Virus record (IMG/VR): IMGVR_UViG_3300031578_000072
Location: 1-47,589 of that record
DNA from: a virus
Strand: one strand, 5' to 3'
Length of the DNA stretch: 47,589 bases
The position numbers and the translations under genes were made by a program. The first letter of the stretch is position 1. Each line of letters starts with the position of its first letter. The notes below the pieces were generated by a model. It was not told where the DNA came from. It searched no databases and saw nothing but the letters and a program-made list of their open reading frames with translations. This document shows positions 6,510-27,684 of the stretch, in pieces.

Positions 6510-6723
6510 CTGACATCCCTCCTCTTATAGCATTAGCTAAAGGATTTGTTGGAGCGAGAGGACTTGCACCCGCCCCCATTTGAGTCATACCCATTTGAGC
6601 TTCTATCTTTTTAAGATACCTCTCTATATAAGGAGTTAGAAAGTAGTTAAGAGGAGAGCCTCTCTTCTTTGCTAATTGTCGAGATATAGCGTCGGTACTT
6701 TGATAAAAATCTAGTTCGTTCAT
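6478..6723 (-). CDS. Small internal virion-associated protein, 81 aa
   Basis: The ATG start at 6723 overlaps the stop of the upstream gene (ATGA). Residues 1-45 are helical and charged; the second half is Met/Gly/Pro/Ala-rich (MGMTQMGAGASP, GGMSGGMDM) and probably disordered. It sits between two large predicted internal proteins and overlaps the giant one. Probably a minor virion or assembly component; no family recognised. Confidence 0.65.
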   Translation of the reverse strand: MNELDFYQSTDAISRQLAKKRGSPLNYFLTPYIERYLKKIEAQMGMTQMGAGASPLAPTNPLANAIRGGMSGGMDMEPPNY

Positions 6724-8027: not shown

Positions 8028-8761
8028 TATATTAAACTCACCTCCGAACTAGGGACAGGATATCCTCCTGCAGCTACACCCCAAGAAGGAGCGATACTAC
8101 TATAAGCCTTTGGTTTCCTCATAGCTTTCTTAATAGCTGAAGGTATATACTCTGGGTCTTGATAAGCTAATATAGTAGGCGTATTAAGGTATGCAAGAAT
8201 GGATTGTATAGTATCTGAATAAGCTGGATTAGCTGCCATGTAAGCCTGTATCCAATCACTCATACCCTTTGACATTAACTCTCCATATCCAAGAGCCGCC
8301 TGCGTACCTCTACCAAGTGCTTCCTGAGCCATTCCACCTCTGGCGGCAGCTAATGCATCAGCTAACCTCATACCTTCTCTTTCAACTGACTCCGCTTTAG
8401 CACCACCCCAGAATGTTCCAGGACCTACAAACTGCTCTTGAACTGTAGGAACTATCTCTTCTCTGAACGTTCTCCCAGCAGGTCCTGCTACAGTCTTTTG
8501 GAAATACTCCTCCGATACTTTTCCAGACATAGCGTCTCTCAAGGCTTGTATCGCTTCACTACCTAAAGGTCCTCCAAAAGGACTAGGTCCTTTACCTTCA
8601 AGAAAGCCAGTTAGTCCTGATAAATAGTCTTCTGGAGATTTAACTCCAGCCAACATTTTCTGTAGCTGTTTAGCTAATGCACTCTGACCAGGGTCTAATG
8701 TTCCCATAGTAGCTATAGGTTTAGCCCCCCCTGATGTAAAGCTTGGTGCTGACATTACCAT
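8027..8761 (-). CDS. Internal virion/ejection-like protein, 244 aa
   Basis: The most likely start is the ATG at 8761 (MVMSAPSF), about 9 bases after AGGAG; an upstream ATG at 8770 touches that site. The protein is Ala/Gly-rich and helical, with GLTGFLEGKGPSPFGGPLG, a central amphipathic helical block (AESVEREGMRLADALAAARG) and no membrane segment or cysteine. It heads the block of predicted internal proteins downstream of the tail genes, in the position of a small podoviral ejection protein. No specific family recognised; the virion role is inferred from context. Confidence 0.6.
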   Translation of the reverse strand: MVMSAPSFTSGGAKPIATMGTLDPGQSALAKQLQKMLAGVKSPEDYLSGLTGFLEGKGPSPFGGPLGSEAIQALRDAMSGKVSEEYFQKTVAGPAGRTFREEIVPTVQEQFVGPGTFWGGAKAESVEREGMRLADALAAARGGMAQEALGRGTQAALGYGELMSKGMSDWIQAYMAANPAYSDTIQSILAYLNTPTILAYQDPEYIPSAIKKAMRKPKAYSSIAPSWGVAAGGYPVPSSEVSLI

Positions 8762-8773
8762 ATTAATCATCTC

Positions 8774-10750
8774 CTATACGTATGTAAATATTCGCTTCAT
8801 ATTTCTTACTGTAAGTCTCATAACTTCTGCATACTTCTTACGCATATCTTCAAGTTGCAAAATCATTCTCTTCGCGGTAGGCTGTATATCTATATACTCA
8901 AGAGTATTATAAGATATAGGTTCCTTCGTGTAATCGCTTTCATACAAGCTATTCAAGCTATTCAGTATCTTCTGAAAATTTAGATTTAAGTCATACACGT
9001 TACATACATCCTTAAGTCTAAAATCATTTATTATATCTTTAAAGCCATTTGGACTTATCTCCTCAAGATACAACGGCGTTAGCTGCTGACTTGACTCTAC
9101 AAGTTTCAAATCGCTAGGGTATACATCTCCATTTATGTAAGTAATAATATCTATAACTAGGTTCTTTAAAACTAAAGTATTATGATTTATAGTTAAAGTA
9201 AATTCATTCATGTTCTCTTGATATATTATACACTTCTCCCTCAAAGTTCTCCAATCTTTCTTAGTATCCATTCCTCTCAAAAAGGCTCCAAAGGTACGTC
9301 CAAATGTAATGCTTGGGTCAAACTCGAACGGAGGTAGAATAAAGTCAGGAGTTACCCAAGGTGGGTATACTATCTCAGGCCACTCAAATTCAGGTAATTC
9401 TTCCTCTTCTATTGGAGGTACGGGTATAGGTTCTATAATAGGAACTTCAGGACTTACGGCAGACTCATCAAAGCCAGTTGCACCATCTGTCGTGAACTCT
9501 ACCCACTCCCCATAATAAACCTCTCCATCTATTGTAGCACGAGCTCGATACGTATAAGACTCCCCTCCGAACAATCTATCATCCGTTGTTGCAGTAGGAA
9601 ATCTACCTAAATCCCCTGTAAATGCTTCCGCTATGAAGCTTCCTGTTTTAGTTACTGTCTTTATTAGTATAGCTTCCCACTTGTAGGTAGTAGTATTATA
9701 AGTCCCTATACCACCTACAAAACCAGCAATACCATGCTCTATATACTGCCAAATCGTTCCAGAGAATGCAAGCTTTACTTCAAACCCTCTTTCAGTTATA
9801 TTCTCTCCAGTTGCTGTTCCATTACCTTTAGCATGGTCTATGCCTACGCTGGAAGCTGCTTCAGTTGTTACCCCCACTTCTACAAGAAATACTGCAATAC
9901 TATATATAGTGCCACCATAACTTGCACTTTCTGCCAACTTACTCATATCGCTTGGGTTTAACTGCCAAACTTTCTGAACCGTATCTCCACCAACATAAAT
10001 ATAAGTGCCATCATTTGCAAGTGCCCAAGTAATAACTGCGGGATATGGGATGCTGAAACCAACAAGTGTCATAGTAGCAATATCGAATTGCCACACTTCA
10101 TCATTGCCCCATCCTGTGCAATACACATAGTTACCAAGGGCAGTAAGAGCATAAATAGCCCCATTATAATTTATGCTCTCCCCCGTTTTACTCATGTCAC
10201 TGGGGTTTATCTTCCATACTGTTTGTGTAGTAAAGCCACCACAAAATACATTAGTCCCATCAGAAGTAACTACATAAATAGTTCCTCCATAGTCAGCGCT
10301 CTCAGCCAATTTAGACATATTAGAGGGATTTATCTTCCAGACTTTTTTTGTTGTATCACCTCCACAATATATATAAGTTCCGTCATTTGCAAGCGACCAT
10401 ATTCTACCACCATAATTAGCACTTTCAGCCACCTTTGCCATGTCACTGATTCTGATTTTCCAAACTTTGTTAGTGGTAGACCCTGCACAGTAAATATAAT
10501 CTCCAAGAATAGTAAGAGCTTCTATCCTGCCCCCATAGTTCGCACTCTCTGCAACCTTAGACATATCACTAATCTGAATTTTCCAGACTTTTTGTGTAGA
10601 ATACCCAGCGCAATAAACATAGTCACCAAAAGTAGCAATAGCCCAGATGGTACCTCCATAGTCAACACTTTCCGCAATCTTACTCATGTCCGTAGAGTCT
10701 AACTTATATACCTTTTGGGTTGTACCTCCCGCACAGTAGATAAAAGCCAT
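8774..10750 (-). CDS. Seven-bladed beta-propeller virion protein with Pro-rich linker
   Basis: The start is the ATG at 10750, inside the upstream stop codon (TAATG). Residues 3-290 are seven near-identical repeats of about 41 residues, each of the form YxYCAG-xTxxKVWKI-xxSDMSK-xAES-xxYGGxI, the expected signature of a closed seven-bladed propeller. A fibronectin-like beta domain follows at about 300-420, then a Pro/Glu-rich linker (PIPVPPIEEEE, WPEIVYPPW) and a helical C-terminal domain rich in Leu/Ile/Asn. The gene follows the nozzle-like gene and precedes the internal proteins. A tail-tip receptor-binding or stabilising role is plausible but inferred. The DNA repeats are similar enough to recombine. 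Confidence 0.7.
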   Translation of the reverse strand: MAFIYCAGGTTQKVYKLDSTDMSKIAESVDYGGTIWAIATFGDYVYCAGYSTQKVWKIQISDMSKVAESANYGGRIEALTILGDYIYCAGSTTNKVWKIRISDMAKVAESANYGGRIWSLANDGTYIYCGGDTTKKVWKINPSNMSKLAESADYGGTIYVVTSDGTNVFCGGFTTQTVWKINPSDMSKTGESINYNGAIYALTALGNYVYCTGWGNDEVWQFDIATMTLVGFSIPYPAVITWALANDGTYIYVGGDTVQKVWQLNPSDMSKLAESASYGGTIYSIAVFLVEVGVTTEAASSVGIDHAKGNGTATGENITERGFEVKLAFSGTIWQYIEHGIAGFVGGIGTYNTTTYKWEAILIKTVTKTGSFIAEAFTGDLGRFPTATTDDRLFGGESYTYRARATIDGEVYYGEWVEFTTDGATGFDESAVSPEVPIIEPIPVPPIEEEELPEFEWPEIVYPPWVTPDFILPPFEFDPSITFGRTFGAFLRGMDTKKDWRTLREKCIIYQENMNEFTLTINHNTLVLKNLVIDIITYINGDVYPSDLKLVESSQQLTPLYLEEISPNGFKDIINDFRLKDVCNVYDLNLNFQKILNSLNSLYESDYTKEPISYNTLEYIDIQPTAKRMILQLEDMRKKYAEVMRLTVRNMKRIFTYV

Positions 10751-12198
10751 TACTTCTTCTCCCTCATAGTATGCTCTATTCCATAGAATCGTAAGAACCA
10801 TCTCTTATCATCCGTGCTATGAGTTAACTTAACCCTTGCCTTCCTATCTGTAAAGTTCGTACCTTTACTTACCCTGTCATAAGCGGTTGTTAGTGCTAAG
10901 CTAGATGAATCTGTGTAATTACTCCCTTCATCTATAGACCGTTCAAATGTAACAGTATCAGTAGCACTAGCTTTCATATCAAATCTGAAGGCAAAGAACC
11001 TCTTCTTCCGCATTATATATTCTTCTTCAGATATCACGAAGTCAGGAGACTCAATAAAGCTAGTTATAGCCTTTCCATTATCTTGCTTATCTAAATAATC
11101 AAAGTGTACCGGCGTTTTAGTTTTGATAGCCATTAAGGCTTTATATCCACTATAGTATACATAATCAGCACATATTATAGCATCTCCCAGTTGACCTCTC
11201 CACCAACTCTTATGCTTTATATCATACATGAAGTACTTAGTAACATAACTCTCCGCAGTACCTTTAAGATAGAAGAAGTACACTTGGTCTTTGTGAGCTA
11301 CATACATAGCAAAGCTAGCCTTCTCTAAATCGTCTGACTTATCGTCGAGCCACAAGTCCTTTATAGGGTCACCTATTGGTACAGGCTCCCTACCTCCATC
11401 CCAGCTATATATATTATCATGGGACATAAAGAACAACCTACCTCCAACATTTACCACAGCCCTCTGGGCGAGTAGACCCGTACTAGGTAGCTGTATAGTA
11501 AGGGAGAATATAGAACTCCCTCCTATCCAATCCATTAGCCCCGCACTCTTATCCTTAAACACAGCTATATAAGGACCTAATGGTATAGCTCCTACTATTT
11601 CAATTCCATCCCCGTCTATCCAATCTATAAAATAACCCGCACCAGTAGTATTATAAGCACCAAGGTCACTATACCTAATACGAAGAGGAGTTACTATGCC
11701 AGTCTTATACTCCCCAAAACCTATTAATCTAAACTTATAGGGAAGTATAATCCTAGGATAATAAGACGTCCAGTTCCCAGGTAATTGTGCATCATCAGTT
11801 ACATTATATATTCCCTTCTCTGCACTAGTAGCTAGGCACTTATTTTGGATAGAGCACATACTTGGATACTTGTGAGTTGTAACAAAGTCTGTGATTGCTA
11901 TACTCTCTTCCCAATTAGTAGATAGATAGTACACTCCATTAGACGTAGCTACATAAAGTGTAGTAACTCCAGCAAAGCTTGTAAACGGAAAGAAGAGATA
12001 AGGAGTACCTACCAGATTGGTATTTGTCCCATATGTAGGATACCCAAATCTCTGAGCAAGTACTCCCTTTTCAACTTGCATGTTACTAGCATTAACGAGA
12101 GCTTGAGGATTTAAGTCCGTTCCAGGTACGTTATTATATATCCCTAAAAGGGGCTTATGAATAGGGAACAATTTATGTCTGTCACTCTCCACACTCAT
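10750..12198 (-). CDS. Podoviral tail nozzle / DNA-stabilisation beta-propeller-like protein
   Basis: A 482-residue beta-rich protein. The N-terminus (LGIYNNVPGTDLNP, then NASNMQVEKGVLAQRFGY) is typical of podoviral proteins annotated as phage stabilisation protein (P22 gp10-like) or nozzle (T7 gp12-like). Repeated short strands with aromatic turns (VYYLSTNW, MDWIGGSS, MSHDNIYSWDGG) suggest a propeller platform. It has an AGGAG site and sits 16 bases downstream of dyad site S2, so it may head its own transcript. Its stop overlaps the propeller gene start. I place it in the tail; whether it is nozzle or stabilisation plug I cannot say. Confidence 0.65.
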   Translation of the reverse strand: MSVESDRHKLFPIHKPLLGIYNNVPGTDLNPQALVNASNMQVEKGVLAQRFGYPTYGTNTNLVGTPYLFFPFTSFAGVTTLYVATSNGVYYLSTNWEESIAITDFVTTHKYPSMCSIQNKCLATSAEKGIYNVTDDAQLPGNWTSYYPRIILPYKFRLIGFGEYKTGIVTPLRIRYSDLGAYNTTGAGYFIDWIDGDGIEIVGAIPLGPYIAVFKDKSAGLMDWIGGSSIFSLTIQLPSTGLLAQRAVVNVGGRLFFMSHDNIYSWDGGREPVPIGDPIKDLWLDDKSDDLEKASFAMYVAHKDQVYFFYLKGTAESYVTKYFMYDIKHKSWWRGQLGDAIICADYVYYSGYKALMAIKTKTPVHFDYLDKQDNGKAITSFIESPDFVISEEEYIMRKKRFFAFRFDMKASATDTVTFERSIDEGSNYTDSSSLALTTAYDRVSKGTNFTDRKARVKLTHSTDDKRWFLRFYGIEHTMREKK

Positions 12199-12498: not shown

Positions 12499-13401
12499 TT
12501 AAATCACACTCCATTTATCTAAGTACTTAATGTCTTTTACTTTTGCTATCTTTCTATTAAACACGTTACTTCCTTCTAATATCTCTCCACTCTTAGCAAC
12601 CTGTATCCATTGTGCCTTACCAGTTTCCCAATGCCTACATACCACACGATATAAGCCTTCTGGAAAGGTCTCTTCACCAACGTCAAGGAAGTCCTCAAAG
12701 TTCTTATTATACCACCAGCTAGTATTTGAGAATGCAAGCAACTCTCCATCCTTTTTGTAAGCAGTGATTGCGTGTCCACCTGCTACTACCTTGTAACTGT
12801 ATTCACCTGTATCTGGATTATATACGTATTGTCTGTAATATCCATAATACTCCATCCACCATACATCAGAATACTTTGCAAATCTACCTAAACCATCAGA
12901 AGTAAGTCGAGCAAATCCATCACAGTCGACTTTTCCTTTCTCATATACTTCATCTGGCAAGTCCCAGTAGTCTCCTACTTCTGCTGTCCAAACGTAAAAT
13001 GGCTTGCCCTTGTCATCCTTCTTTATCATTTCAAGAGCCATTAAAGTATCTCTAATAATGTATGCCATCCCTGCCATATACCTTGTCCATCTATCAGTAG
13101 TCTTATCTACCAAGTGCCACTTATAAAATGTAGGGTCAGGAGGCTCAGGCTCTGGTTTAGGTTCAGGGTCAGGTCCTGGTGGATTAGGAATAATTGCCTT
13201 CTTACATCCAGATAGAAACAATGCTATTGCAGCTATAATTGCGACTATCCAATACCATTTCATACTATTCACCTTCCTTTCTATTAGAGGTGGACATGTG
13301 CCACCTCCACAATTATTATTCTTAAATGCTAAAGATATCAAAAAAGCTAGGATACAACATATGATAAGTATAGCAATACCTATAATCAATTTAGCACCCA
13401 T
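12499..13401 (-). CDS. Transglutaminase-like lipoprotein with possible dual start
   Basis: The longest frame starts at ATG 13401 (300 aa, AGGT 8 bases upstream) and begins with a hydrophobic helix. A second in-frame ATG at 13263 has a stronger site (AAGGAAGGTGA) and gives a 254-aa lipoprotein: signal helix, lipobox LSGC at residues 17-20 (Cys20), then a Pro/Glu linker. The catalytic-like region fits a transglutaminase-like / BTLCP cysteine fold: Cys114 in VDCDGFA, His164 in GGHAITAY and Asn180 in FSNTSWW (short-form numbering). It lies directly after the M15 peptidase and holin genes, so a role at the outer membrane face or wall during lysis, or in superinfection exclusion, is plausible. I favour the 13263 start, but both may be used. 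Confidence 0.6.
   Translation of the reverse strand: MGAKLIIGIAILIICCILAFLISLAFKNNNCGGGTCPPLIERKVNSMKWYWIVAIIAAIALFLSGCKKAIIPNPPGPDPEPKPEPEPPDPTFYKWHLVDKTTDRWTRYMAGMAYIIRDTLMALEMIKKDDKGKPFYVWTAEVGDYWDLPDEVYEKGKVDCDGFARLTSDGLGRFAKYSDVWWMEYYGYYRQYVYNPDTGEYSYKVVAGGHAITAYKKDGELLAFSNTSWWYNKNFEDFLDVGEETFPEGLYRVVCRHWETGKAQWIQVAKSGEILEGSNVFNRKIAKVKDIKYLDKWSVI
13264..13279 (-). promoter_or_regulatory. Internal ribosome binding site of lipoprotein gene
   Basis: On the minus strand, AAGGAAGGTGA lies about 5 bases before the internal ATG at 13263. It is stronger than the site of the upstream start at 13401 and decides the lipoprotein start. Confidence 0.55.
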
Positions 13402-13405
13402 GCGT

Positions 13406-13852
13406 TTACCTCACAGCATCCTTAACACACTTAACTGCATCTTCAAACTTCTTAAAATAAACGTAATCCTTTTCTCTATACTTGACCCATGCTTCACTAG
13501 GTATAGGTCTAAAAGTATCAGCATGTACATGCCCATCATCAGGATATAACCCTATTCTACTAAAGCCTATGTGCTTAGCCTCCTCAGCAAGTTCAATCAT
13601 GCTCATCCCAGGAGATTTAATATCCCAAGCTTTAGCAAACAGATGGGCAGAATTTCGATACCCATGTATAGATTTGTTGTATGCAGGGCACCGTATACCT
13701 CCACCTTTGGATACGTAAATAGGTTGGTCTATGTAATCTATAAGACTTTGTAATAAGTATATAGAACGTGCATCAACTGGTCTATCTTTACCACACCCAC
13801 AAGGGCATCGAACTTCAGCATATTTAAAATTCTTAGTTATGTATAATGACAT
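13406..13852 (-). CDS. Endolysin: peptidase M15 family (D,D- or L,D-carboxypeptidase-like)
   Basis: A 148-residue zinc peptidase of the M15 / hedgehog-like fold. It carries SAHLFAKAWDI (68-78; His70 and Asp77 as predicted zinc ligands) and GHVHAD (107-112; His110 as the third ligand), and an N-terminal CPCGCGKD segment typical of phage M15_3 enzymes. It would cut the peptide part of peptidoglycan at lysis. Its start overlaps the stop of the holin-like gene (TAATG) and its stop is 5 bases from the lipoprotein frame, forming a lysis cassette placed inside the virion arm. There is no signal peptide, so export through the holin is expected. Confidence 0.85.
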   Translation of the reverse strand: MSLYITKNFKYAEVRCPCGCGKDRPVDARSIYLLQSLIDYIDQPIYVSKGGGIRCPAYNKSIHGYRNSAHLFAKAWDIKSPGMSMIELAEEAKHIGFSRIGLYPDDGHVHADTFRPIPSEAWVKYREKDYVYFKKFEDAVKCVKDAVR

Positions 13853-14070
13853 TACTTTTTACCATTTATCTTCCCTACTTCTATACGAAAGTCTATGAGA
13901 GACTCTTTTATATTCTTACTATTCAGAGTTTCCTGTTCCACCAATGGTACTAGTGTAGTTATTGCTGTAGTTAGTTTATCCATTTTAGGCTCCATTCGCA
14001 CTAAAACATAAATCGCTACCGCAATAGGAAAACCAACTGTTGGTATCCACTTAAATAATATTTCTTCCAT
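13852..14070 (-). CDS. BhlA/UviB-like holin
   Basis: A 72-residue protein with one N-terminal membrane helix (PTVGFPIAVAIYVLV) after a short N-terminal stretch (MEEILFKWI), then a charged coiled-coil-like tail (MEPKMDKLTTAITTLVPLVEQE, shown in part). This is the layout of the BhlA/UviB family found in Bacillota phages and bacteriocin loci. A strong ribosome binding site (AAAGGAGATGATGTA) precedes it. It lies directly upstream of the M15 endolysin with overlapping stop/start, as expected of a holin-endolysin pair. Confidence 0.75.
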   Translation of the reverse strand: MEEILFKWIPTVGFPIAVAIYVLVRMEPKMDKLTTAITTLVPLVEQETLNSKNIKESLIDFRIEVGKINGKK

Positions 14071-14191: not shown

Positions 14192-16192
14192 TTAACTTAA
14201 TCTATGAACTATAAAAAAATTATCAACAGCACCTTCACCTATATTAACATTAGCTCCTTGAGTATGTATAATTCTTATATCAATATATTCCGTAGCACCC
14301 AAATACATTTGACTAACTACATTAGAATCTAAAGGTGTAGTAATTGTAGCAGTAACGATGTTTTGACTTCCTGCGGCATATATTGTTCCATTTTTATATA
14401 TAACAGCTTGAAAATATTCCCCAATAGTCCACTCCGCTGAGACACTACGAACACGTGCCACAACAGAATAATATCCTGCTGTTGTCGCAGTAAATCTGTA
14501 ATTTGTTGCATTATCATATTCTCCTAAATTATCATATACTTCGGTAGCATACTGGATAATAGTCCACGTGGCAGTTGTTATTGCCTGAGCCGCTGCCTTT
14601 GTTGCTCTAATTCTTGAAGCAGAGATTGTCGGAGTAACTAAAGATGGGGAAGTATTATATACTAATTTATCCGTCCCAGTCTCATCACTTATCACCCCTG
14701 CAAGTTCAGCAGAAGTAGTTGCAGCAAGAATACTCAATGGTTCATTTATAGAAGCAGTCCCTTCAAAAGTTAACACTCCACCAGCACTAACATTAACATA
14801 ATTAGTCCAACCACCATCACCCATCTTGATATTACCTGCATTGTCTATTGCTTGGCGTAAAACAGGAGTTGCCGAACCATCAGGGCTGGTAAGAAATTCT
14901 AATCTGCCAGGCATATCCGCATTGCCAGGTGTTCCATCAACAACAGCATGAATCTTTGCACCTAAATCATATCCGTCTGTATGAAATCCAAAGAAGAGAT
15001 ATGACCCTAAATAGTCCCCACTTAAGACATTGGCGGTTGGGTCTCCATCCCTTGTTCTCTGAAAATTGAAGTATGGTGCAGAAGTAGGAGTATCACTTGC
15101 CAAAAAGGTTACAAATCCATTTGTAAATTTCCAATATCCTGTAACCGTCTCAGCCTCATCTAACATACCAATAGAAGCTACATCAGATAAGTCATCAGAA
15201 GAAATTGTATCGAATATCAAAGCGTCAGGTGTTGCATTTACCTGCAAAAATTTATTAGCTGAACCAGTATAATTGGCAGGAGTATCGGTCAAAGCCACAA
15301 ACGTAGTAGCCCCACCACCCGCTGCTACCTTATATATAGCATTACCTGTAGTAGTGTCCTTTGTCAAGACATGCTCATTAGTTGCACCCGAAACAGCAGT
15401 TAAATCATTTATGGCAGCTTGTGCAGTTACCTGCCCTGTGCCACCTTCTGCTATAGCTAAAGCAGTATCTAACGTTAAAGCAGTTCCATCTATATTACCA
15501 TCACTATCTATATTTGCTACTTCAGTATTAGTATAATCTTTAACAATAACTTTATTCGCAGCAGCACTATCTCCAAGTCTTAATACAATATCTTCACCTA
15601 CCGCTACCTCTATATGTGGGTGTGTATTTGCAAGATGTAATTGAATAGCGTCTATATTGCTACTTCCATAAAGACTATGCCCTATTTCTACAACACGCCC
15701 AACAGTAGGTTCTACATTTGTCATTCCACCAGTGGTAGCAGATAGATATAATATATCCCCCGCAGCCCAAGTTTCGTCTGCTGGATTTACTGCATTAGCA
15801 CCAAGAGTATCTACTCCTTCTAATACCCCAGCAATTCTTACCAAACCAATACCATTTTGAGAGAATGCTCCTGCCGCTAATCCAATAACATGAGCTTTGC
15901 CAGCAACATCAGCATCAGCTAATCCAACTTTTGGGAATGCTACACCAGTAGCTCCACTAATATAGAGTGGTTGTCCCTTAACTATAGCACTTGTATTCTC
16001 TTCTTTTGCATCAATAGTCAATGCTATTGCAGTAGCAGAACCAACTCCAGTTAAATTAGAACCATCACCATAAAAGTAAGTTGCGCCTACGTCCCCATCA
16101 AAGTTTGCATCAGCACCTACTTTAGCATATATTGCGAATACTTCTAAAGGCAATAATAGACATAAAAGAATTACTATTAATAATTTTCTCAT
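14192..16192 (-). CDS. Fibre-like protein with Sec-type signal peptide and C1q/TNF-like tip
   Basis: A 666-residue beta-rich protein. The first 20 residues form a classical signal peptide (positive start, Leu/Ile-rich core, LEVFA before the likely cut). The mature N-terminus holds GDVGATYFYGDGSNLTGVG, typical of fibre shafts. At about 55-205 lies a domain common in phage tail fibres (QPLYISGATGVAFPKVGLAD, DILYLSATTGGMT). The C-terminal 140 residues (AAAQAITTATWTIIQY to FFIVHRLS) look like a C1q/TNF-type jelly-roll receptor-binding tip (YRFTATTAGYYSVVARVR). A signal peptide on a virion fibre is unusual. The gene lies between another fibre-like gene and the lysis cassette. Confidence 0.65.
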   Translation of the reverse strand: MRKLLIVILLCLLLPLEVFAIYAKVGADANFDGDVGATYFYGDGSNLTGVGSATAIALTIDAKEENTSAIVKGQPLYISGATGVAFPKVGLADADVAGKAHVIGLAAGAFSQNGIGLVRIAGVLEGVDTLGANAVNPADETWAAGDILYLSATTGGMTNVEPTVGRVVEIGHSLYGSSNIDAIQLHLANTHPHIEVAVGEDIVLRLGDSAAANKVIVKDYTNTEVANIDSDGNIDGTALTLDTALAIAEGGTGQVTAQAAINDLTAVSGATNEHVLTKDTTTGNAIYKVAAGGGATTFVALTDTPANYTGSANKFLQVNATPDALIFDTISSDDLSDVASIGMLDEAETVTGYWKFTNGFVTFLASDTPTSAPYFNFQRTRDGDPTANVLSGDYLGSYLFFGFHTDGYDLGAKIHAVVDGTPGNADMPGRLEFLTSPDGSATPVLRQAIDNAGNIKMGDGGWTNYVNVSAGGVLTFEGTASINEPLSILAATTSAELAGVISDETGTDKLVYNTSPSLVTPTISASRIRATKAAAQAITTATWTIIQYATEVYDNLGEYDNATNYRFTATTAGYYSVVARVRSVSAEWTIGEYFQAVIYKNGTIYAAGSQNIVTATITTPLDSNVVSQMYLGATEYIDIRIIHTQGANVNIGEGAVDNFFIVHRLS

Positions 16193-16205
16193 AATTTACT
16201 CCTTC

Positions 16206-17477
16206 TTATGGATGGTATAGAATAGTTATATCTTCGTTCTGCACGATTGTACTACAATCTAGTGTATTGTACGTAATGTTAGCATTTCCACTAATCTCTC
16301 CATACTCCTCTGCACCATCTACAGTTTTCATATAAATATCAGCTTCCTCACTAATTGGATTAGGAAGTCCAATTATATCACCTATACCTATAGTTACTTC
16401 CTCAGGACTGATAAGAGCACTGGACACATTAATATTACTTACATATACAAACGCCTTAACTCCAGATGCAGTTCCACCATCAACTATAGTTATCGCATCA
16501 GTTGCTGATGTAGTTCCATCAACGGTTGTTCCAGTTATAGTAACAACCCCAACAGAACCAGCAGTTGATGTTACCGTAATATTCCTTCCATAGTCAGGAT
16601 TTGTAATTCCAGTATTTATATCCTGACTTGCACCAGTTCCGACAATAGCTGCGTGCACATAATCTACATCAGCAGCATCTACGTCCATTAGATGTAGGAA
16701 GTAGTTACCTAAAGGTGCATAAATAGCAGTCATTGCTACTCCACCTACAGTTGGTACGTTTGATATCTCCAAGTCTGTAAACCAACCCTTAGTTACACGA
16801 GTTCCAGTTACACCAATAGAACCACTCATTGTTATATTGTTAGCACCTAAAGCTAATGTTCCGCTAACAGATACACCTGCGGAGAATGTAACTCCACCAC
16901 TAGCTGTTATAGTCATTGTATTAGCACCAGTTCTCTGTATATGTACATCCTGACCTATTCCAAAATAGACATAACCAGTATCATCTAAATACAAGTCAGC
17001 CCACTCAAAAGTTGCAGAACCTATACTATGTGTACTAGCTGCCGCTGGGAGTAAAGCACCAGTAACTGTTAACCCACCAGAAAGGACTACAGCAGCAGAT
17101 GCTGTAATAGCTAAGGTATTTGCGTCTGTAACCTCAAGAGCAATCTCCTGTGACGTTCCCATATATATCTTCCCAGCAGTTCCTACATATATATTTCTCC
17201 ACTCATAAGTAGCAGAACCTAAGTCGGTATCGTCAGCAGAGTCTGCTATGAGGGAAGCATTAATTGCGGTAGTTCCTACATTAGCCATAGTAACACCTAA
17301 AGCACCAGTAACATTCGTGTATGCTATTTGTACATCACTAATATAGTAATTGCCAGTAGTACCAACATTACCAGTGAACTCCGTTGTCGGTCCTACGTTG
17401 ACATATGCAACAGCAAGAACACTCGAAGTTATGCATAAGAACATAATTAAAAATACTATTAGTTTTCTTATCATCAT
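16206..17477 (-). CDS. Filament/fibre-like repeat protein with Sec-type signal peptide
   Basis: The start is the ATG at 17477 (or 17474), 5-8 bases after AGGAG; an upstream ATG at 17507 overlaps the previous gene. Signal peptide MIRKLIVFLIMFLCITSSVLA, written as two parts: MIRKLIVFLIM and FLCITSSVLA. The body has repeats of the form SIGSATFEWADLYLDDTGYVYFG and ATYEWRNIYVGTAGKIYMG, as found in phage shaft or baseplate fibres. The last 150 residues (HAAIVGTGASQDINTGITNP...) are homologous to the next upstream gene (17486-18118), so the two share a module. Unlike that gene, this one carries a signal peptide. Extracellular or virion surface role inferred. Confidence 0.6.
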   Translation of the reverse strand: MMIRKLIVFLIMFLCITSSVLAVAYVNVGPTTEFTGNVGTTGNYYISDVQIAYTNVTGALGVTMANVGTTAINASLIADSADDTDLGSATYEWRNIYVGTAGKIYMGTSQEIALEVTDANTLAITASAAVVLSGGLTVTGALLPAAASTHSIGSATFEWADLYLDDTGYVYFGIGQDVHIQRTGANTMTITASGGVTFSAGVSVSGTLALGANNITMSGSIGVTGTRVTKGWFTDLEISNVPTVGGVAMTAIYAPLGNYFLHLMDVDAADVDYVHAAIVGTGASQDINTGITNPDYGRNITVTSTAGSVGVVTITGTTVDGTTSATDAITIVDGGTASGVKAFVYVSNINVSSALISPEEVTIGIGDIIGLPNPISEEADIYMKTVDGAEEYGEISGNANITYNTLDCSTIVQNEDITILYHP

Positions 17478-17485
17478 ATCATCTC

Positions 17486-18118
17486 CTATTCCATTTGATA
17501 GTACCATACTACCATATCTTGATAAACTCCCACTGTCGAGAAGTCAATAGTACTGTAAGTTGCATTAACTAAAGCTGCGTAAGTACTCGTAAGTTCCACA
17601 GCATTAACAGCTATCTTATATACTTGTCCTATCGCATCTATCTCATGCAAAAGCCCAAACTTATCGCCAAAGCCTACAGATACTGTGTCAGATGTAGATA
17701 GACCCGCAGGTAGTTGGATATTAGTAATAGTATCAAAAGGTTTATTTCCAACTGTAGTACCCCCTGCTGTTATTCCAAGAGTTTCAGTACCCTCTGTCCC
17801 CCTAACAAGTCCTGTAAGCACCACGTTACCAGAAGGAGAAGCAACATTGGTTGCAGTTATCGTAGCATTTCTCCCCTCCCCAGGGTTCGTAATACCTGTT
17901 GTTATATTCTGTATAGCACTCGTACCTGTAATTGCCGCATGTATCGCAGCTACAGCAGCTGCCGCAACGTCAGTAAATACTTCCTTCCATATACTATGAA
18001 TATTTGAAGAGTGAACTATAGCATCTAAAATGTCCCAGTTGAAAAGTAAGTTAGCAAGTATATCAGTATCATCTGTCCACTCTGGCTTCTTCATTAGTAA
18101 GTTTATGGAGTATTGCAT
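17486..18118 (-). CDS. Virion-type protein sharing a beta domain with its neighbour
   Basis: A 210-residue protein. The N-terminal 50 residues are helical (EWTDDTDILANLLFNWDILD). From residue 60 (HAAITGTSAIQNITTGITNP, then GRNATITAT) it matches the C-terminal domain of the following gene: the same GITNP-x-x-GRN motif, the same GxTxxG-K-F turn and the same closing Y-x-T-(L/I)D-x-STxxxxxD block. It lacks a signal peptide. Start codon and upstream stop overlap (TAATG-type junction). Probably a virion or assembly protein that interacts with its paralogue; the function is not known to me. Confidence 0.55.
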   Translation of the reverse strand: MQYSINLLMKKPEWTDDTDILANLLFNWDILDAIVHSSNIHSIWKEVFTDVAAAAVAAIHAAITGTSAIQNITTGITNPGEGRNATITATNVASPSGNVVLTGLVRGTEGTETLGITAGGTTVGNKPFDTITNIQLPAGLSTSDTVSVGFGDKFGLLHEIDAIGQVYKIAVNAVELTSTYAALVNATYSTIDFSTVGVYQDMVVWYYQME

Positions 18119-18399
18119 TATGCTACCTCATAGTACGTAGTATCTGGCCTAGGTATGGTGTAGAAAGTTGTATCTGGTTTAGGCACTAAATAGTAAAGAA
18201 CAACAAACCGTCCTTTAGTAGCTAACCTTTTCCACGTAGTCAAACCTAGACTCTTTAACTTATTCCACGTAGTTAATCCCTGATTTTTAAGAGACAACCA
18301 CGTACGAATACTAATATTAGGAACAACATAGAAGATAGTACTAATCGCCGGGATGGTATAGTATGTAGTCTCAACCTTGGGTATTGTATAGTATGTCAT
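18118..18399 (-). CDS. Short protein built of two tandem peptide repeats
   Basis: A 93-residue protein of low complexity. Six copies of a strand-like motif (TYYTIP, TYYTIP, IFYVVP, LYYLVP, TFYTIP, TYYEVA) flank a centre of three 10-11-residue units (TWLSLKNQGL, TTWNKLKSLGL, TTWKRLATKGR). The order is three strand repeats, three Trp/Lys units, three strand repeats. It overlaps the connector gene by 4 bases upstream and the next start downstream. The Tyr/Pro/Thr-rich repeats suggest an extended fibrous or adhesive segment. No family recognised. Confidence 0.6.
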   Translation of the reverse strand: MTYYTIPKVETTYYTIPAISTIFYVVPNISIRTWLSLKNQGLTTWNKLKSLGLTTWKRLATKGRFVVLYYLVPKPDTTFYTIPRPDTTYYEVA

Positions 18400-19352
18400 T
18401 TAACACTAGGATACATATACCCAAGCCCTTGCATATGACTACCCATATTACCTCTCGCCGGCAAGTTCGCTGACCTAAATCCTTTATCAACAAGAAACTC
18501 GTCAGGATGCCTAGCAAGAACTCGCATATGTCCAGCAAGCATAGCATTAAGTTCCTTGATGGCGTCAAGTTTCTTCTCTACTTCCTCCAACACTCTCCAT
18601 CCAAATATAGAAGCTGCCATACATATTAAGTCCTCTATATGTGATACCTCAGGTTCGCTATCATCGCCTGCCAGTGCAAGTTGCCACTTCCAGTAAACAA
18701 GTTCCCCACATAGAGCCTCACTCGGAGGATTACCTATCTCAAATATATCTCCCTTATCTATATACAAGGATGACTTATCAGATACCCTTTCAGTTATGTC
18801 CGTTACCTGCTCTACAAAATCTTCTTCCAGTACGTATTCAAGCTTCCTACTATCAGTCCCATTATATATCTCTAATATATGAGGTTCAGTTCCTGTATCA
18901 ATCAAATCTATAGCTGTCCCTGCAGTAGCGAGAGCACTAGTAGTTGCAAGCTTGATTGTTGTAGCACTTACATTAATAACGTAGTAGAACGTATTAGCAG
19001 ACAAAGGGTCTGGAGGGTCGGTATTAAGGAACTGCACTCTAGTACCAGTAGTTATATTAGTTACTACAGTAATTATATTAGTGCCTATATCTATAGCACT
19101 TAATGCAAGACTCTCCATAGTATGGTCTAGAATAGTTAAGGACTTAGGATACTTTACATCGTCAGGAAATGCATACTCGGTCTGACCTATTACAAGTGGA
19201 AATTTAACCCGCTTGCGTAAGCCCTTCAAGTCGCACTGTCTATCAAGGTAATAGAGCCCCCAGTTGAGCCAGTTAACTATATTAGTATCATATAGACCAT
19301 CTGTATGTCCTAGCATTAAAGCAATTTCTGTTACAAACTCGGAGCGTTTCAT
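18396..19352 (-). CDS. Head-tail connector (adaptor) protein, P22 gp4/T7 gp11-like
   Basis: A 318-residue protein. The N-terminal helical part (EIALMLGHTDGLYDTNIVNW, then INWGLYYLDRQ-type helix) followed by FPLVIGQTEYAFPDDVKYP is the pattern of podoviral adaptor proteins that close the portal ring. A beta insertion (about 85-165: VVTNITTGTRVQFLNTDPPD) resembles an Ig-like decoration. The C-terminal half is helical again (VSHIEDLICMAASIFGWRVL). Its start follows the stop of the signal-peptide protein gene directly. It is also possible that it is a gp11-type gatekeeper; both act at the same place. Confidence 0.6.
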   Translation of the reverse strand: MKRSEFVTEIALMLGHTDGLYDTNIVNWLNWGLYYLDRQCDLKGLRKRVKFPLVIGQTEYAFPDDVKYPKSLTILDHTMESLALSAIDIGTNIITVVTNITTGTRVQFLNTDPPDPLSANTFYYVINVSATTIKLATTSALATAGTAIDLIDTGTEPHILEIYNGTDSRKLEYVLEEDFVEQVTDITERVSDKSSLYIDKGDIFEIGNPPSEALCGELVYWKWQLALAGDDSEPEVSHIEDLICMAASIFGWRVLEEVEKKLDAIKELNAMLAGHMRVLARHPDEFLVDKGFRSANLPARGNMGSHMQGLGYMYPSVK

Positions 19353-19783
19353 TATTCCTCCTTAACTATCATAAACTTCTCATATACTCTAAAGTGTTCC
19401 ATGGTCAACTTCTCTTCATTTTCAAGTTTCTGTAAAGCACTTTTAATTATTCCAAGCAGAGTCTCTTTAAATACAAACTCTTTCTCTGGTACTATTGTCC
19501 AACCATACTGTGCTACTACTCCACCTTGGTCATTAGGCTTCAAACCTGCTATAACAGACTCTTCGTCGGTCGCACCTAACATCAGATTTGCTTCTGTCAC
19601 AATCTTTAGTGTAGCAAAATTACCTGTTTGAGGTAAGAGTCCCATGACTACTAGTCTTTCAAACAAGTTTAGCTTCGTCTTGAAGTCCTCTGCAAATACC
19701 TGTTTAGCTGTAAAAATTAGACATATGAAGAGAACTACTAAAAATAGTGCAGTAATATACTTATTCTTAAATAAAGAATACAT
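19352..19783 (-). CDS. Exported or membrane-anchored protein, 143 aa
   Basis: The start is the ATG at 19783, 6 bases after AAAGGAGG; upstream in-frame ATGs have no such site. Signal peptide: KNKYITALFLVVLFICLIF then TAKQVFA with a likely cut before EDF. The mature part is helical and acidic with a beta turn (GATDEESVIAGLKPNDQGGV). It sits between the connector gene and a signal-peptide-bearing filament gene, an odd place for an exported protein. No family recognised. It may act with the neighbouring exported fibre-like proteins. Confidence 0.55.
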   Translation of the reverse strand: MYSLFKNKYITALFLVVLFICLIFTAKQVFAEDFKTKLNLFERLVVMGLLPQTGNFATLKIVTEANLMLGATDEESVIAGLKPNDQGGVVAQYGWTIVPEKEFVFKETLLGIIKSALQKLENEEKLTMEHFRVYEKFMIVKEE

Positions 19784-19807
19784 ATCTTTCCTCCTTTCTA
19801 AAAGTTT

Positions 19808-19831
19808 GCGGCATTTTAGGTTCAATGCCGC
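19808..19831 (-). terminator. Hairpin after filament gene
   Basis: GCGGCATT (19808-19815) pairs with AATGCCGC (19824-19831), 8-base loop. Read leftward it is followed by AAACTTTT, a weak U-tract. It would terminate or attenuate the transcript after the 711-aa gene and before the 143-aa gene. Confidence 0.5.
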
Positions 19832-19844
19832 TAAACCGTTTAGT

Positions 19845-21980
19845 TTATGGATTAGTAAATGCAGTCCAAATATCGTTCTTTTTGATAAACAAAACTCCAC
19901 CACTATCCGTACAAGACATGTACAAAGAACCATCAGCTATATCAGCATCAGCACCAACCGCAGTCACTATTCCTGCATCATCAGTTGCAGCTCCAGAAGC
20001 TATAATAGTTTTATCTCCAGCTACATTATTCCTCATCTCTATCTCATTATCACCAGCAGCAAAAGTCGCACCATCCATACTAATAGCAGCAGTTGTATAC
20101 GTTCCATTCATATCTATCCCAATAGCATGGGCTCCTTCAAATAAAACACCAGTTGTGCAAGTACCATCATTGTTTATCTTAAGAGCAACAGTCATAGTTC
20201 CATCATTCTCTATCTCGATGCCATCAGCAACTGTAGCAGCAGACTGGTTGTATACTTTGATTACATCATCAGTTGTAACCACGGTGCCTGCATTAACAAA
20301 ATAACCTACAATCGCATCACCAACTACAGTTCCTGCTGTACCTGAACCAGTAATCATAGCTTGCAGTGCCACGGCTCTATCAGTAGTTGTTTCACCTGTT
20401 CCAAGGTCTACCACAGTTGAAACTGAAATGACCTCTTGAGTAACATCAGCACCGGCCGTAATATTAGTATGACACTGTATTCCATATGCGGCTTCAAGAC
20501 TTGTAGCTACATTCATCCTTAATGCATGCCCTGCTATACTAGTACTTGTAGTTGTTCCAGAAGTAGTAATTTTAGTGTAGTATGCCTGATACCAATATGC
20601 TACATTCACAGACATAGTAACATTATGCACAACTCCAAACATGTTAGCTGTAGTAGGTGCTACCGCAATACCAGTCGTATAATCCCCTACATTTATGAAA
20701 CTATTAGTTACATCTCCAGCTACTGGGTCCTCGGTAAATCTAATACCATGGTCATAAGTTCCACCTATTTGAATTGCTTCATCAGTTATTGTACCACCAA
20801 TAGTAATACCGTCTACACTAGTTCCAGAAAGTACAATACCAGAACCAACAACTAACAAATCATCTACACTTCTATCCCATAACAGGTAAGACCCGTTAGT
20901 ATGACCATAAAAAGCTACATCAACCCCCTTAGCTCCACCAGAAGCACCAAAAGCAAAGGTGCCACTAGTATCAGTAGATGGATTCCAAAATACTCCACAA
21001 CCAGTAGTATCACCATATAAAGATACTAGAACTCCCTTTGTGTCAGCACCAAAGTACCATGCACCATTTGTATCTCCATTAGCATCCCACCAAGCTTTGT
21101 AAGTAGTTACATCACCATATACAGTAAAGTCCGTACCAGCAGCATCAGCACCTACTTCTACAACTCCTGCAATAAAAGCTGCACCAGCTACACCTAAACC
21201 ACCTGCTGTATGTATAGAACCAGTAGTTGAACTAGTTGAAGCAGTCGTACCAGCTACACCTAATTGACTGGCAGTACCTACTAGTAAAAGGTCGTCAGCA
21301 CTTCTATCCCATATTAAGTAGTTTCCTGTAGTTGTACCAAATGCCTTAAAGTCCACTCCTTTAGTATCTGCACCTAAAGTAAGTGCACCATAAGTATCTC
21401 CATTTTGGTCCCAGAAGAAGTCAGCAGTTGCTTCGTCTCCATAAAAAGTTACATCAAAACCAGCACCACTAGCTCCAACCGTAATACCACCATTAGAAGT
21501 TATTACCCCAGTGACTGTAAGTGGAGGAACAATAAGTATTGCATCTGTATCAGTGTCAAATACCATCATATCAGTAGAACCACCAACAATAGATAAAGCA
21601 TCATTTACTGTATCCTTCAAGGTTATATCATAGACACCTGTTCCACTTACTGACATATCAATATCATCACCAATAAATAGTTGCTTGGCGCAAGCTATTC
21701 CACCAGGGGTAACTATCGAACCTACAGTAAGACTAGAAGCATCTGCAGTACTAGTAATTGTCATACTAGTATACGTATTAGCCGTAACTGCAGTAGCAAT
21801 GGTCACTCCATCTGTATCATCTATCTTCATAATAGATGTACCAGCTGCATCCACATAATTTATGTAGGTATTACCAGCATCCTTTTCCACAAATAAACCT
21901 GCAGCAACAGCTCCAGCTCCTATTGTAAAACTAAGTAGAGTAAATAAAATCAGTAATATTATCGAAATTCTCTTAAACAT
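19845..21980 (-). CDS. Large filament-like repeat protein with signal peptide
   Basis: A 711-residue, almost wholly beta-rich, Gly/Thr/Ala-rich protein. The N-terminus is a signal peptide (MFKRISIILLILFTLLSF then TIGAGAVA). The body has internal repeats at about 168-237, 276-345 and 346-383, built of FYGDxxTxxxFWDxNGDTxGA, LGADTKGVDF and YLIWDRSxDDLLLVG units. The second half is Thr/Ala-rich beta with many short strands. Composition suits a trimeric fibre or a surface filament. It lies between a small structural gene and the exported 143-aa protein. The very similar DNA repeats could vary by recombination. Virion or secreted location cannot be decided from sequence. Confidence 0.6.
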   Translation of the reverse strand: MFKRISIILLILFTLLSFTIGAGAVAAGLFVEKDAGNTYINYVDAAGTSIMKIDDTDGVTIATAVTANTYTSMTITSTADASSLTVGSIVTPGGIACAKQLFIGDDIDMSVSGTGVYDITLKDTVNDALSIVGGSTDMMVFDTDTDAILIVPPLTVTGVITSNGGITVGASGAGFDVTFYGDEATADFFWDQNGDTYGALTLGADTKGVDFKAFGTTTGNYLIWDRSADDLLLVGTASQLGVAGTTASTSSTTGSIHTAGGLGVAGAAFIAGVVEVGADAAGTDFTVYGDVTTYKAWWDANGDTNGAWYFGADTKGVLVSLYGDTTGCGVFWNPSTDTSGTFAFGASGGAKGVDVAFYGHTNGSYLLWDRSVDDLLVVGSGIVLSGTSVDGITIGGTITDEAIQIGGTYDHGIRFTEDPVAGDVTNSFINVGDYTTGIAVAPTTANMFGVVHNVTMSVNVAYWYQAYYTKITTSGTTTSTSIAGHALRMNVATSLEAAYGIQCHTNITAGADVTQEVISVSTVVDLGTGETTTDRAVALQAMITGSGTAGTVVGDAIVGYFVNAGTVVTTDDVIKVYNQSAATVADGIEIENDGTMTVALKINNDGTCTTGVLFEGAHAIGIDMNGTYTTAAISMDGATFAAGDNEIEMRNNVAGDKTIIASGAATDDAGIVTAVGADADIADGSLYMSCTDSGGVLFIKKNDIWTAFTNP

Positions 21981-23220: not shown

Positions 23221-24216
23221 CTACGCATCTATACTATATATTACTCCAAGACTCTTCCGTCTATCACAAATTACTTGAAGAGCTATGCAAATCTGAGCAG
23301 CTCTATCTTTAACCTGATTAGGAATATCCTTCCAAGAAGTCAAGTCAAAGTTAGCAGCTGGGTCGATAACTAGTTTTAAGATTTGGGTATTGGCAACATA
23401 TAACTTTCCACTATTGGCGTGTTCAGACCAAAGTACAGGCAACTTTTTAAACTGTATAATTTCAAACTGCGCATCACCAAGCGTCTTATTATATATTCTA
23501 TGTTGTTCTAAAGTATTATCTTCAATACTTTCATATATACCCTGAGTAGTTATAAGTGTATCAGGTTTATATGACTTCTTACCTTTACCACAATCGTTAA
23601 TCATAGTTCTTAGCTTCTTATCTAACCATACGGAAGGCTTTAATCCAGACAAAGTCCCAGCTTGATTCTCCCACCAAGTTTTAACACTAGAGTCTACACC
23701 ACCAAGAGTTCCTCTACTACCAGTAACATCAGCAACAATTATATTATCTAGTCCATTGATGTCATCCCCTGCTCCATTCCCAAATAACTGTTGCTCTAAC
23801 TGGTCGTTACATTCGCTCTTAGCAGTCTCCATCTCTATATTCATTTGGTTAAGAATCTGATACTTACCTCTATTCTGTAAGTCTTCCTGCCAGTATCTTA
23901 CGAGAGAAATTGCCGCATACGCCCATTTGTAGATAGCGTCTGTTGCTTTCTCATCTCGAGATAGGTCAATAGTTCCACCTTTATGCATCATCTTAAATGT
24001 AGAATTCCTACCATACAGTAAAGGTCTTACTATAAACTTACCACCAGGAATATAAATAACAGCCTTCTTAGCTTTATAGAACCAGAACCACAATGGTGTT
24101 TCTACAAATATCTGGTCTATAGCTTCTTTCCTATGGTCTCTCCAAGTAGTTGTATATAGGTCATCTAAGTCTTGAGTTAACACGGAATTGGATATACTCC
24201 AAGCCACGATACTCAC
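23221..24216 (-). CDS. Major capsid protein (HK97-fold)
   Basis: A 331-residue protein. It begins with a short helical N-arm (SVLTQDLDDLYTTTWRDHRK), then a loop-like region (GGKFIVRPLLYGRNSTFKMM), a long spine-like helix (YQILNQMNIEMETAKSECND) and a beta/A-domain rich segment ending YSIDA. The order scaffold gene, this gene, accessory gene and its position after portal are as expected for the major capsid protein. Length is within the usual 300-400 range. No cleavage of a scaffolding domain is apparent, because scaffold is a separate gene upstream. Confidence 0.75.
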   Translation of the reverse strand: MSIVAWSISNSVLTQDLDDLYTTTWRDHRKEAIDQIFVETPLWFWFYKAKKAVIYIPGGKFIVRPLLYGRNSTFKMMHKGGTIDLSRDEKATDAIYKWAYAAISLVRYWQEDLQNRGKYQILNQMNIEMETAKSECNDQLEQQLFGNGAGDDINGLDNIIVADVTGSRGTLGGVDSSVKTWWENQAGTLSGLKPSVWLDKKLRTMINDCGKGKKSYKPDTLITTQGIYESIEDNTLEQHRIYNKTLGDAQFEIIQFKKLPVLWSEHANSGKLYVANTQILKLVIDPAANFDLTSWKDIPNQVKDRAAQICIALQVICDRRKSLGVIYSIDA

Positions 24217-25521: not shown

Positions 25522-27214
25522 CTTGCTTCCTCCCTCTCATTTCTTTTTGTATTTGCTGCCCTAAAGCATTTCCAGGCATAGCCTGTTCTTGATTATTTCC
25601 CCAACCAGATTGATTTAGTAGTCTATCTGGATTAGCCTCAGGATACTGTTCCAACAGGAATGTAGCAAGTTCTACAGGATTAAACAGTGGGTCCTGTCTG
25701 CCTACAGCATATAGTTCCTGAGCATTCTGTTTTCTAACCTGTAAATTGTAAGGCAAGCACTCATCAGGATTTACTATATAATCATAGTCATCTATCAAAT
25801 CTCTCCCTTGATAAGTAGCCCACTTAGTCTGTCCAGTAGGAGATAGAATTGGGATTACCCCTTCACTAGTAGCTTGAAAAGTAGATACCATCTGTAGTAT
25901 CTTCTTAGCTATCTGGACTAGTAAGTCTGAAGCAACATCCCTTCTTTCATCTATACGCAGTTCTGAGGCTGCCTGAACAATGCTTGCCTCTGTAGCTGTC
26001 TTCCTACCACCAGTATATTGGGACAACTGGTTAGGTCCCATACCTAACATCTCTCTTACATCCTGTATCACCTGTGTAGACAAAATACCAAAGTCCATGG
26101 GTACTGTAGGCTGTAGGAGTAGAATTGCTTTCCTTACATCATCTACAGTTGTTTCTATAATAGGCATGACTTCTCCACTTATGAACTTCTTTTTAGCTTC
26201 AGGGGATAAAGCACCCACAGTAGTCATTGCCTTAATAGTAGCTGCCGCCCTATGTGCCCGTGCCTGCGTTCTAATCTCATTTAGCTCGTCCTGTTGAGGC
26301 ATTATAATCCTTGCGTCTGGTATACCCCAGAAGCTCGTAGAGTCTTGATTAAATATCATCTCAGCAGCAGGTAAGTCATTAAACTGCAGTTCATCTACCT
26401 CGTTAACTAGAAACTTAGGATGGTCAAAAGATATTGTATATATCTTTCTAGTCCTATAATCTCTAATCTCCCATAGTTCTACGAACTCATCTTCCTCCAT
26501 CATCTCTCTATATATAGGGTCGCTGTAAGCTCCCTCAGTCTCAACCTGTCTATTAGCCTTTAAATCCTTTCTATTAGGCAAGTATCTTTCATCTAACTTA
26601 GCATCACTCACTAACCTAATAGACCTATGCGCTATCCACGGTGTCGTAGATAACGAGACAGCACCATAAGGTACAATTGTGTCTAAAGGTCTTTCCCTAA
26701 GCATCCAAGGAGAACCAGGGAATATGTTCTTATTATACTCTATATAATTCATATCAGAAGCAAATCTATCAGTAGTTCCCTGACCTTCAAGTAAAGGAGA
26801 AGCATGGTCAGGCTTATATCCGTATTGCCCATCATATCCAAAGAAACAAATGCCAACACCGTTGGAGTAGTTATCTGCAACCATCTTTTTCATTTCTTGT
26901 TTAGTACTAAGCTTTCGTATATACCAATTCACGGTGGTTTCAGCAGCTTTAAGCTTTACATATGGTATCTGCGGGTTGTTAGGTCGCAGAGTTACTCGAG
27001 GGTTACGAGCATACACCTTAGGTATAATAGCCTTACCAAAAGCATGGATAAGATTAACAGGAATTATATCTCCCATATCATCCCAATCACATCTTAATCT
27101 TCTCTCATACATAGCCCAAGACGAAGGCTTACCATACTTGAACTGATACTTAATACCACTTCTTAGTCTATCTTTCCACAGTTGCAATAACTCAGAGTCC
27201 TTTAGTTCTGGCAT
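25508..27214 (-). CDS. Portal protein
   Basis: A 568-residue protein. The N-terminal region (IPVNLIHAFGKAIIPKVYAR, NPRVTLRPN) and YIRKLSTKQEMKKMVADN are typical of podoviral-type portal subunits. A long helical central part includes QQDELNEIRTQARAHRAA, the stem/crown transition, and ELRIDERRDVASDLL follows. The C-terminal tail is Gln/Asn-rich (NNQEQAMPGNALGQQIQKEM). Located between the terminases and the capsid genes, as usual. Its first 13 bases overlap the end of a LAGLIDADG endonuclease gene, and its ribosome binding site lies within that gene. Confidence 0.75.
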   Translation of the reverse strand: MPELKDSELLQLWKDRLRSGIKYQFKYGKPSSWAMYERRLRCDWDDMGDIIPVNLIHAFGKAIIPKVYARNPRVTLRPNNPQIPYVKLKAAETTVNWYIRKLSTKQEMKKMVADNYSNGVGICFFGYDGQYGYKPDHASPLLEGQGTTDRFASDMNYIEYNKNIFPGSPWMLRERPLDTIVPYGAVSLSTTPWIAHRSIRLVSDAKLDERYLPNRKDLKANRQVETEGAYSDPIYREMMEEDEFVELWEIRDYRTRKIYTISFDHPKFLVNEVDELQFNDLPAAEMIFNQDSTSFWGIPDARIIMPQQDELNEIRTQARAHRAAATIKAMTTVGALSPEAKKKFISGEVMPIIETTVDDVRKAILLLQPTVPMDFGILSTQVIQDVREMLGMGPNQLSQYTGGRKTATEASIVQAASELRIDERRDVASDLLVQIAKKILQMVSTFQATSEGVIPILSPTGQTKWATYQGRDLIDDYDYIVNPDECLPYNLQVRKQNAQELYAVGRQDPLFNPVELATFLLEQYPEANPDRLLNQSGWGNNQEQAMPGNALGQQIQKEMRGRKQGANI

Positions 27215-27684
27215 ATGGGATTATCCTCCATCATCTTGAATAAGTCATTGCAATCAATTCTACCTTTTGAAAGTCTTTTCTTTCTATTCGATTCCGCTAC
27301 CTCCACAGAAACGCCTCTCTTATTTAACTCTCTTAACTCTTCGGTAATAGCATTCCTCCTATTATCATCTGTATGCGGAGTAGTAACAAACTCAATCCCT
27401 AATAAAGAGTGTTTCGTTTTAACACGAAGATAAGGCAAAATGGACTTCAGAAAAACTATCATGTCCTCTCCGTATATGTACCATCTATTCATAACTTTAG
27501 CACGATTCATTTTGGGTTGATACTCGTATATAACACCCCCAAAGGTTTGTTTTAGAAACTCAAGAGGTTCTCTAACTGTATTACCTACATTTATTGAGAG
27601 ACTCTTATTAGTTATACATATACATCCCTCTCCATCAAAAAAGCCTGCAGCATATATAATATCCTCTTTACTACCATTGACCAT
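27202..27684 (-). CDS. LAGLIDADG-type homing endonuclease next to portal
   Basis: A 160-residue single-motif LAGLIDADG protein. The signature helix is YAAGFFDGEGCI at about 10-21, followed by a beta-rich body and PLEFLKQTFGG, ILPYLRVKTKHSLLGIEF and a helical C-terminus (AITEELRELNKRG). It would act as a homodimer cutting a long DNA site. It is freestanding, inserted just 5' of the portal gene and overlapping its start. The last residues (DLFKMMEDNP) resemble the tail of the protein at 38198-38584. It follows the 70-aa gene with no gap. Confidence 0.85.
   Translation of the reverse strand: MVNGSKEDIIYAAGFFDGEGCICITNKSLSINVGNTVREPLEFLKQTFGGVIYEYQPKMNRAKVMNRWYIYGEDMIVFLKSILPYLRVKTKHSLLGIEFVTTPHTDDNRRNAITEELRELNKRGVSVEVAESNRKKRLSKGRIDCNDLFKMMEDNPICQN

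Follow-up and report, generated by a model that had tools for sequence, protein, structure and literature searches.

Why would fibre-like proteins encoded among the virion genes of a tailed phage begin with export signals? The question is raised by a lytic, tailed phage of environmental-metagenome origin, whose whole IMG/VR virus record, 47,589 bases long, is referred to here as the window. An earlier note on this DNA had described Sec-type signal peptides on four genes of the virion region and gave three possible interpretations: that the proteins are exported to the host surface, that the virion is assembled by an unusual route, or that the hydrophobic N-ends serve as anchors in the virion or membrane. 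Our analysis confirms, at the level of sequence, that all four proteins carry genuine and conserved Sec leaders of the signal-peptidase-I type. Export is well supported by these sequences and fares best among the three readings, because the leader format is conserved, the leader of S19352 diverges fast, neighbouring genes carry leaders together and the controls agree.

Four leader-bearing genes in the structural block

All four genes lie in a tailed-phage structural block on the minus strand of the window. The block begins with the terminase, a portal-type and a scaffold-type gene (both assigned by position), the major capsid protein (23221-24216) and a decoration-type gene. Close behind the capsid genes follow F19845, a 711-residue fibre-like protein with a Sec leader and internal repeats (19845-21980), and, directly downstream, S19352, a leader-bearing partner protein of 143 residues (19352-19783). 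The second half comprises an SU10-type adaptor protein (18396-19352; PF24175, E 4.4e-8), a 93-residue gene, the leaderless 210-residue protein P17486 (17486-18118), the leader-bearing fibre-like protein F16206 (423 residues, 16206-17477), the leader-bearing mosaic fibre F14192 (666 residues, 14192-16192), a YvrJ-family small membrane protein that is probably the holin (13852-14070; PF12841), an M15 peptidase that is probably the endolysin (13406-13852; PF08291) and more virion genes. Because the holin and endolysin genes come directly behind the fibre cassette, host cells are presumably lysed in the normal way.

Elsewhere in the window, two small minus-strand genes with a homing-endonuclease-like motif (27202-27684 and 28621-29007; YIAGFFDGEG and YAAGFFDGEG) sit between the terminase and the portal-type gene, and a plus-strand gene (44750-47074) fuses a uracil-DNA-glycosylase domain to a family A DNA polymerase. 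A 3D-domain protein with a hydrophobic N-terminal segment is encoded at 36260-36640 on the plus strand (PF06725), and similar genes with such a segment occur at the ends of the related contig L007 and also in L005. The YvrJ and 3D-domain genes, and these alone, hint weakly at a monoderm, Bacillota-like host, given the usual taxonomic range of such genes. Searching a genome collection with a profile of S gave one match, a leaderless form of S on a contig of a Dehalococcoidia metagenome-assembled genome; it was the only match in 400 genomes of that phylum, and a host assignment on this basis was set aside.

Strong Shine-Dalgarno sites precede the leader starts of all four genes. With a slash marking the likely cut, F14192 begins MRKLLIVILLCLLLPLEVFA/IYAK (leader residues 1-20, cut EVFA/IYAK), F16206 begins MMIRKLIVFLIMFLCITSSVLAVA/YVNV (residues 1-24), S19352 begins MYSLFKNKYITALFLVVLFICLIFTAKQVFA/EDFK (residues 1-31, cut QVFA/EDFK) and F19845 begins MFKRISIILLILFTLLSFTIGAGA/VAAG (residues 1-24, cut at about GAGA/VAAG). 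Each leader combines a positively charged n-region, an uncharged hydrophobic core and small residues at -3 and -1. None of the four proteins contains a lipobox, so they do not resemble the small lipobox proteins of the Llp/Cor type. Nor do they resemble sortase- or membrane-anchored adhesins: no C-terminal LPxTG or other C-terminal anchor was found in any of them, the sole LPQTG, in S19352, being internal. No strong hydrophobic or transmembrane segment was found in the mature parts.

Leaders were called by a purpose-written rule set covering n-region charge, the uncharged hydrophobic core, the -3/-1 rule and the lipobox. This home-made caller was controlled on known phage proteins and on nulls. 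It recognised the positive controls lambda Lom, Bor and Rz1 and called none of lambda J and Stf, T7 gp17, the P22 tailspike, phi29 gp12 and gp8.5, and the S-CBP1 fibre. Among the nulls, 1.0% of the shuffled protein bodies and 0.3% of the internal segments were called, falling to 0.13% and 0%, respectively, at a core strength of at least 3, a range that covers all four window proteins (core scores 3.5-3.9). Among about 64 genes of the window it called these four and one more. Applied to the window together with its relatives, where gene starts outside the window were called automatically, it was positive for 4.5% of 1,506 non-identical complete gene calls, many of these positives being similar fibre-like genes. 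The Shine-Dalgarno sites, the calls, the controls and the nulls together bear out Sec-type leaders on each of the four genes.

The fifth call in the window (12499-13401, minus strand) has two nested starts, of which the outer gives a membrane segment and the inner ATG (13263) a lipobox leader, MKWYWIVAIIAAIALFLSGC/KK. Inspection by eye shows transglutaminase-like residues in this gene product, and its homologues in L071, L007 and L005 are leaderless.

Could the leaders be artefacts of wrong starts or chance hydrophobic N-ends? The longest-ORF list did place two starts too far upstream: the Shine-Dalgarno sites put the start of F16206 at 17477 or 17474 rather than 17507, and that of S19352 at 19783 rather than 19933. 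Against an artefact stand the strong Shine-Dalgarno sites at the leader starts themselves, the low false-positive rate and the recurrence of leaders in many independent contigs, and we consider this explanation extremely improbable.

Conservation of the leaders and the S family

Leaders are kept at the same place in orthologues of F19845 (L071, L072), F16206 (L071, L075, L007) and F14192 (L071, L007, L075), and in eleven non-identical S proteins. Leader-bearing fibre-like genes also occur in the less related contigs L011, L023 and L035. In L011, which is not closely related to the window, three consecutive large genes (4338-11185; 1045, 465 and 772 residues) are all called leader-bearing, and one of them has collagen/fibritin-like matches.

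How the leaders diverge is informative. Between the window and L071, the S leaders are 23% identical and differ in length by 10 residues, whereas identity over the first 100 residues of the mature part is 91%; both cut sites nevertheless read VFA/EDF. Fast divergence with the format kept is how signal peptides behave, and a docking helix should not evolve in this way. For F19845 the contrast is mild (leader 71%, mature part 91% identity), and for F16206 and F14192 the comparison says little, since the mature N-terminal part diverges too.

These comparisons bear on two readings in which the leader stays on the protein. In the first, the protein is never exported, and its hydrophobic N-end lies buried in the virion as a docking peptide. 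The position of the genes in the structural operon fits this, as does the annotation of processed, non-Sec N-ends on virion proteins such as lambda B and P22 gp7, but those N-ends are not hydrophobic. The divergence of the S leader, with its change in length, is unlike a packed interface, and the leader is wholly missing from homologues in other phages. The virion anchor of the earlier note is disfavoured on these two grounds, and we consider it improbable. In the second reading, the leaders stay uncleaved and tether the fibres to the outside of the cytoplasmic membrane. Cut sites are weak or absent in some relatives (L139, L008), and the uncharged stretches of F16206 and F19845 are long; on the other hand, -3/-1 sites are good in all four proteins and most orthologues, and the cut motif of S is conserved despite the divergence of its leader. 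Such uncut anchoring is unlikely, if somewhat less so than burial in the virion.

Neighbouring genes carry or lack leaders together. We compared 33 non-identical members of the S family, both leader-bearing and leaderless. Complete fibre genes that precede a leader-bearing S are leader-bearing themselves (8/8), and the genes that precede a leaderless S are leaderless too (19/19, with every start codon tried). In a tree of mature S, the leader-bearing members form one clade (100/98), so these 27 pairs are not independent events. Members of this clade come from at least two virion types, namely window-like genomes with the SU10-type adaptor and HK97-type loci, and the fibres ahead of S in these two groups have only a C-terminal stretch in common.

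S19352 itself is not fibre-like. Its structural model, in which the leader forms an N-terminal helix, is of high confidence (pLDDT 92) and matched no solved structure in the PDB at E<=0.001; its best viral structure matches are uncharacterised proteins. The leaderless form of S had no match among 50,697 phage records. S probably serves F19845 as partner or chaperone, a role that would account for their joint export.

Fibre modules and a recurring cassette

The other three proteins are fibre-like by homology or repeats. The fibre-like repeats that the earlier note had seen are detectable as internal repeats in F16206 and F19845; none are detectable in F14192, whose fibre character comes from homology, its middle and C-terminal parts matching tail-fibre families (PHROG) and also cyanophage fibres. 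F16206 had no match among the 50,697 phage records, and only part of its C-terminal domain was modelled confidently, with no significant structure match. This domain is common to F16206 and the leaderless P17486 encoded just upstream.

The N-terminus of P17486 is instructive. In L003 and L072, the stretch immediately after the leader matches residues 1-48 of P17486, and in L003, L004 and L072 the leader is followed directly by the motif with which P17486 begins. Because of this arrangement, the leader in these contigs looks like an add-on ahead of an existing N-terminus. The motif itself could be a virion-docking module; a blast search with it against phages returned nothing useful.

In a rival reading, which corresponds to the unusual assembly route of the earlier note, the exported fibres and S would mature beyond the membrane and dock on virions only once lysis has released these, as true virion parts. 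This is the main rival to a role away from the virion, ahead of uncut anchors and virion-packed helices. The genes do lie among virion genes, leaderless relatives of F and S are found behind capsid genes in other phages, which is the usual position for a virion role and counts against a role away from the virion, and a leader placed directly before a motif that otherwise opens a leaderless protein would suit docking. Dilution after lysis, however, would make docking inefficient, nothing would be gained by export, since leaderless fibres with the same modules work well elsewhere, and no precedent was found in the literature searched. We regard docking after release as a minority possibility, with a chance of about a fifth, and favour secretion for a role outside the virion.

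A profile scan showed that a related cassette recurs elsewhere, in the order leaderless domain protein, small predicted-exported protein, and exported fibre with the P17486/F16206 domain, often accompanied by further exported fibres. The small protein is absent from the window, and a scan with it found no loci beyond those already known. Pairs of leaderless and leader-bearing proteins with a common domain are present in the window, L071, L075, L007/L135, L133, L134 and L136. The cassette occurs in podovirus-like, long-tailed and HK97-head loci, lying behind the tail genes in the long-tailed L133, L134 and L135 and behind the head genes in the HK97-type L136. The domains borne by leader-bearing relatives at this position are of lectin-like, F5/8C, beta-helix, beta-propeller or C1q type. 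In L136, an 801-residue leader-bearing protein with a tailspike-like right-handed beta-helix domain (6530-8935; PF13229) adjoins the head genes.

Among cultured phages, Microcystis phage Mwe-Yong1 has the F16206/P17486 domain in a short protein whose gene comes immediately after the capsid gene. Two leader calls in the Microcystis phage record look like false positives and were set aside. Homologous lectin- and fibre-domain genes of cultured phages (Rhizobium, Pelagibacter, Methanoculleus, EBPR) carry no leaders.

These observations suggest, with a little less than even confidence, a portable cassette used in several virion types, in which fibre modules and their partners bear Sec leaders and are secreted before lysis for control of the cell surface, with leaderless copies of the same domain encoded alongside.

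A possible role outside the cell and known systems

For the window, we put at about even the chance that the four proteins leave the cytoplasm before lysis and work outside it as fibres that bind sugars or receptors, masking receptors and aiding release from debris. The Sec machinery of the host would translocate F19845, S19352, F16206 and F14192 from the cytoplasm late in infection, and signal peptidase I would cut off their leaders. The mature proteins would fold outside and, as they have neither a strong second membrane segment nor a C-terminal anchor, would be soluble or wall-associated beyond the membrane. The fibres may then bind surface glycans or receptors, with S travelling with F19845 as partner or chaperone, and may occupy or clear the sites by which the phage itself attaches, both on the infected cell and on debris. 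Masking of these sites would exclude superinfection and keep progeny from being trapped at lysis. We regard masking of the phage's own attachment sites as the likeliest job because this phage also encodes the F16206 domain without a leader.

As a matter of routine, fibre genes are taken to encode the receptor-binding proteins of the virion, and host range is predicted from them. Should some fibre-like proteins be exported as a class, this annotation would be wrong for these phages, and a secreted set of fibre modules would represent a novel means of controlling adsorption near an infected cell. Since neighbouring genes have or lack leaders in pairs, the idea can be tested directly.

Exported phage proteins are already known (Lom, Bor, T5 Llp), as are surface-located ones (PblA/PblB); export signals on phage fibres are unexpected. 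In the literature searched, mainly open papers with a few under subscription and no preprints, we found no Sec-leader fibre cassette in tailed-phage structural operons. Soluble phage depolymerases, the free tailspikes around plaques, are spike- or fibre-type proteins that act outside the cell. They recall the beta-helix protein in the related cassette of L136, but known free tailspikes are leaderless and released by lysis, and the P22 tailspike had no leader under our rules. The head-fibre gene of phi29, gp8.5, lies directly behind the major capsid gene, a position comparable to that of F19845 and S, which closely follow the capsid genes; the likeness rests on gene position, and gp8.5 is leaderless. 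Lambda Lom is an exported protein encoded between tail-fibre genes (PMC12309495) and is called by the same rules as the window proteins, but it is an outer-membrane beta-barrel, not a fibre, and lambda's own fibres are leaderless. PblA and PblB of streptococcal phage SM1 reach the host surface as adhesins through permeabilisation by holin and lysin (PMC2920869), whereas the window proteins have Sec leaders. The superinfection-exclusion lipoproteins of the T5 Llp and Cor type are exported, are encoded beside the receptor-binding protein gene and target the phage's own receptor (PMC9586334). Like Llp, the window proteins are phage-encoded and, by prediction, exported; Llp, however, is a small lipoprotein that works from the periplasm, whereas here the leaders are of the signal-peptidase-I type, lack a lipobox and stand on large fibre-type proteins.
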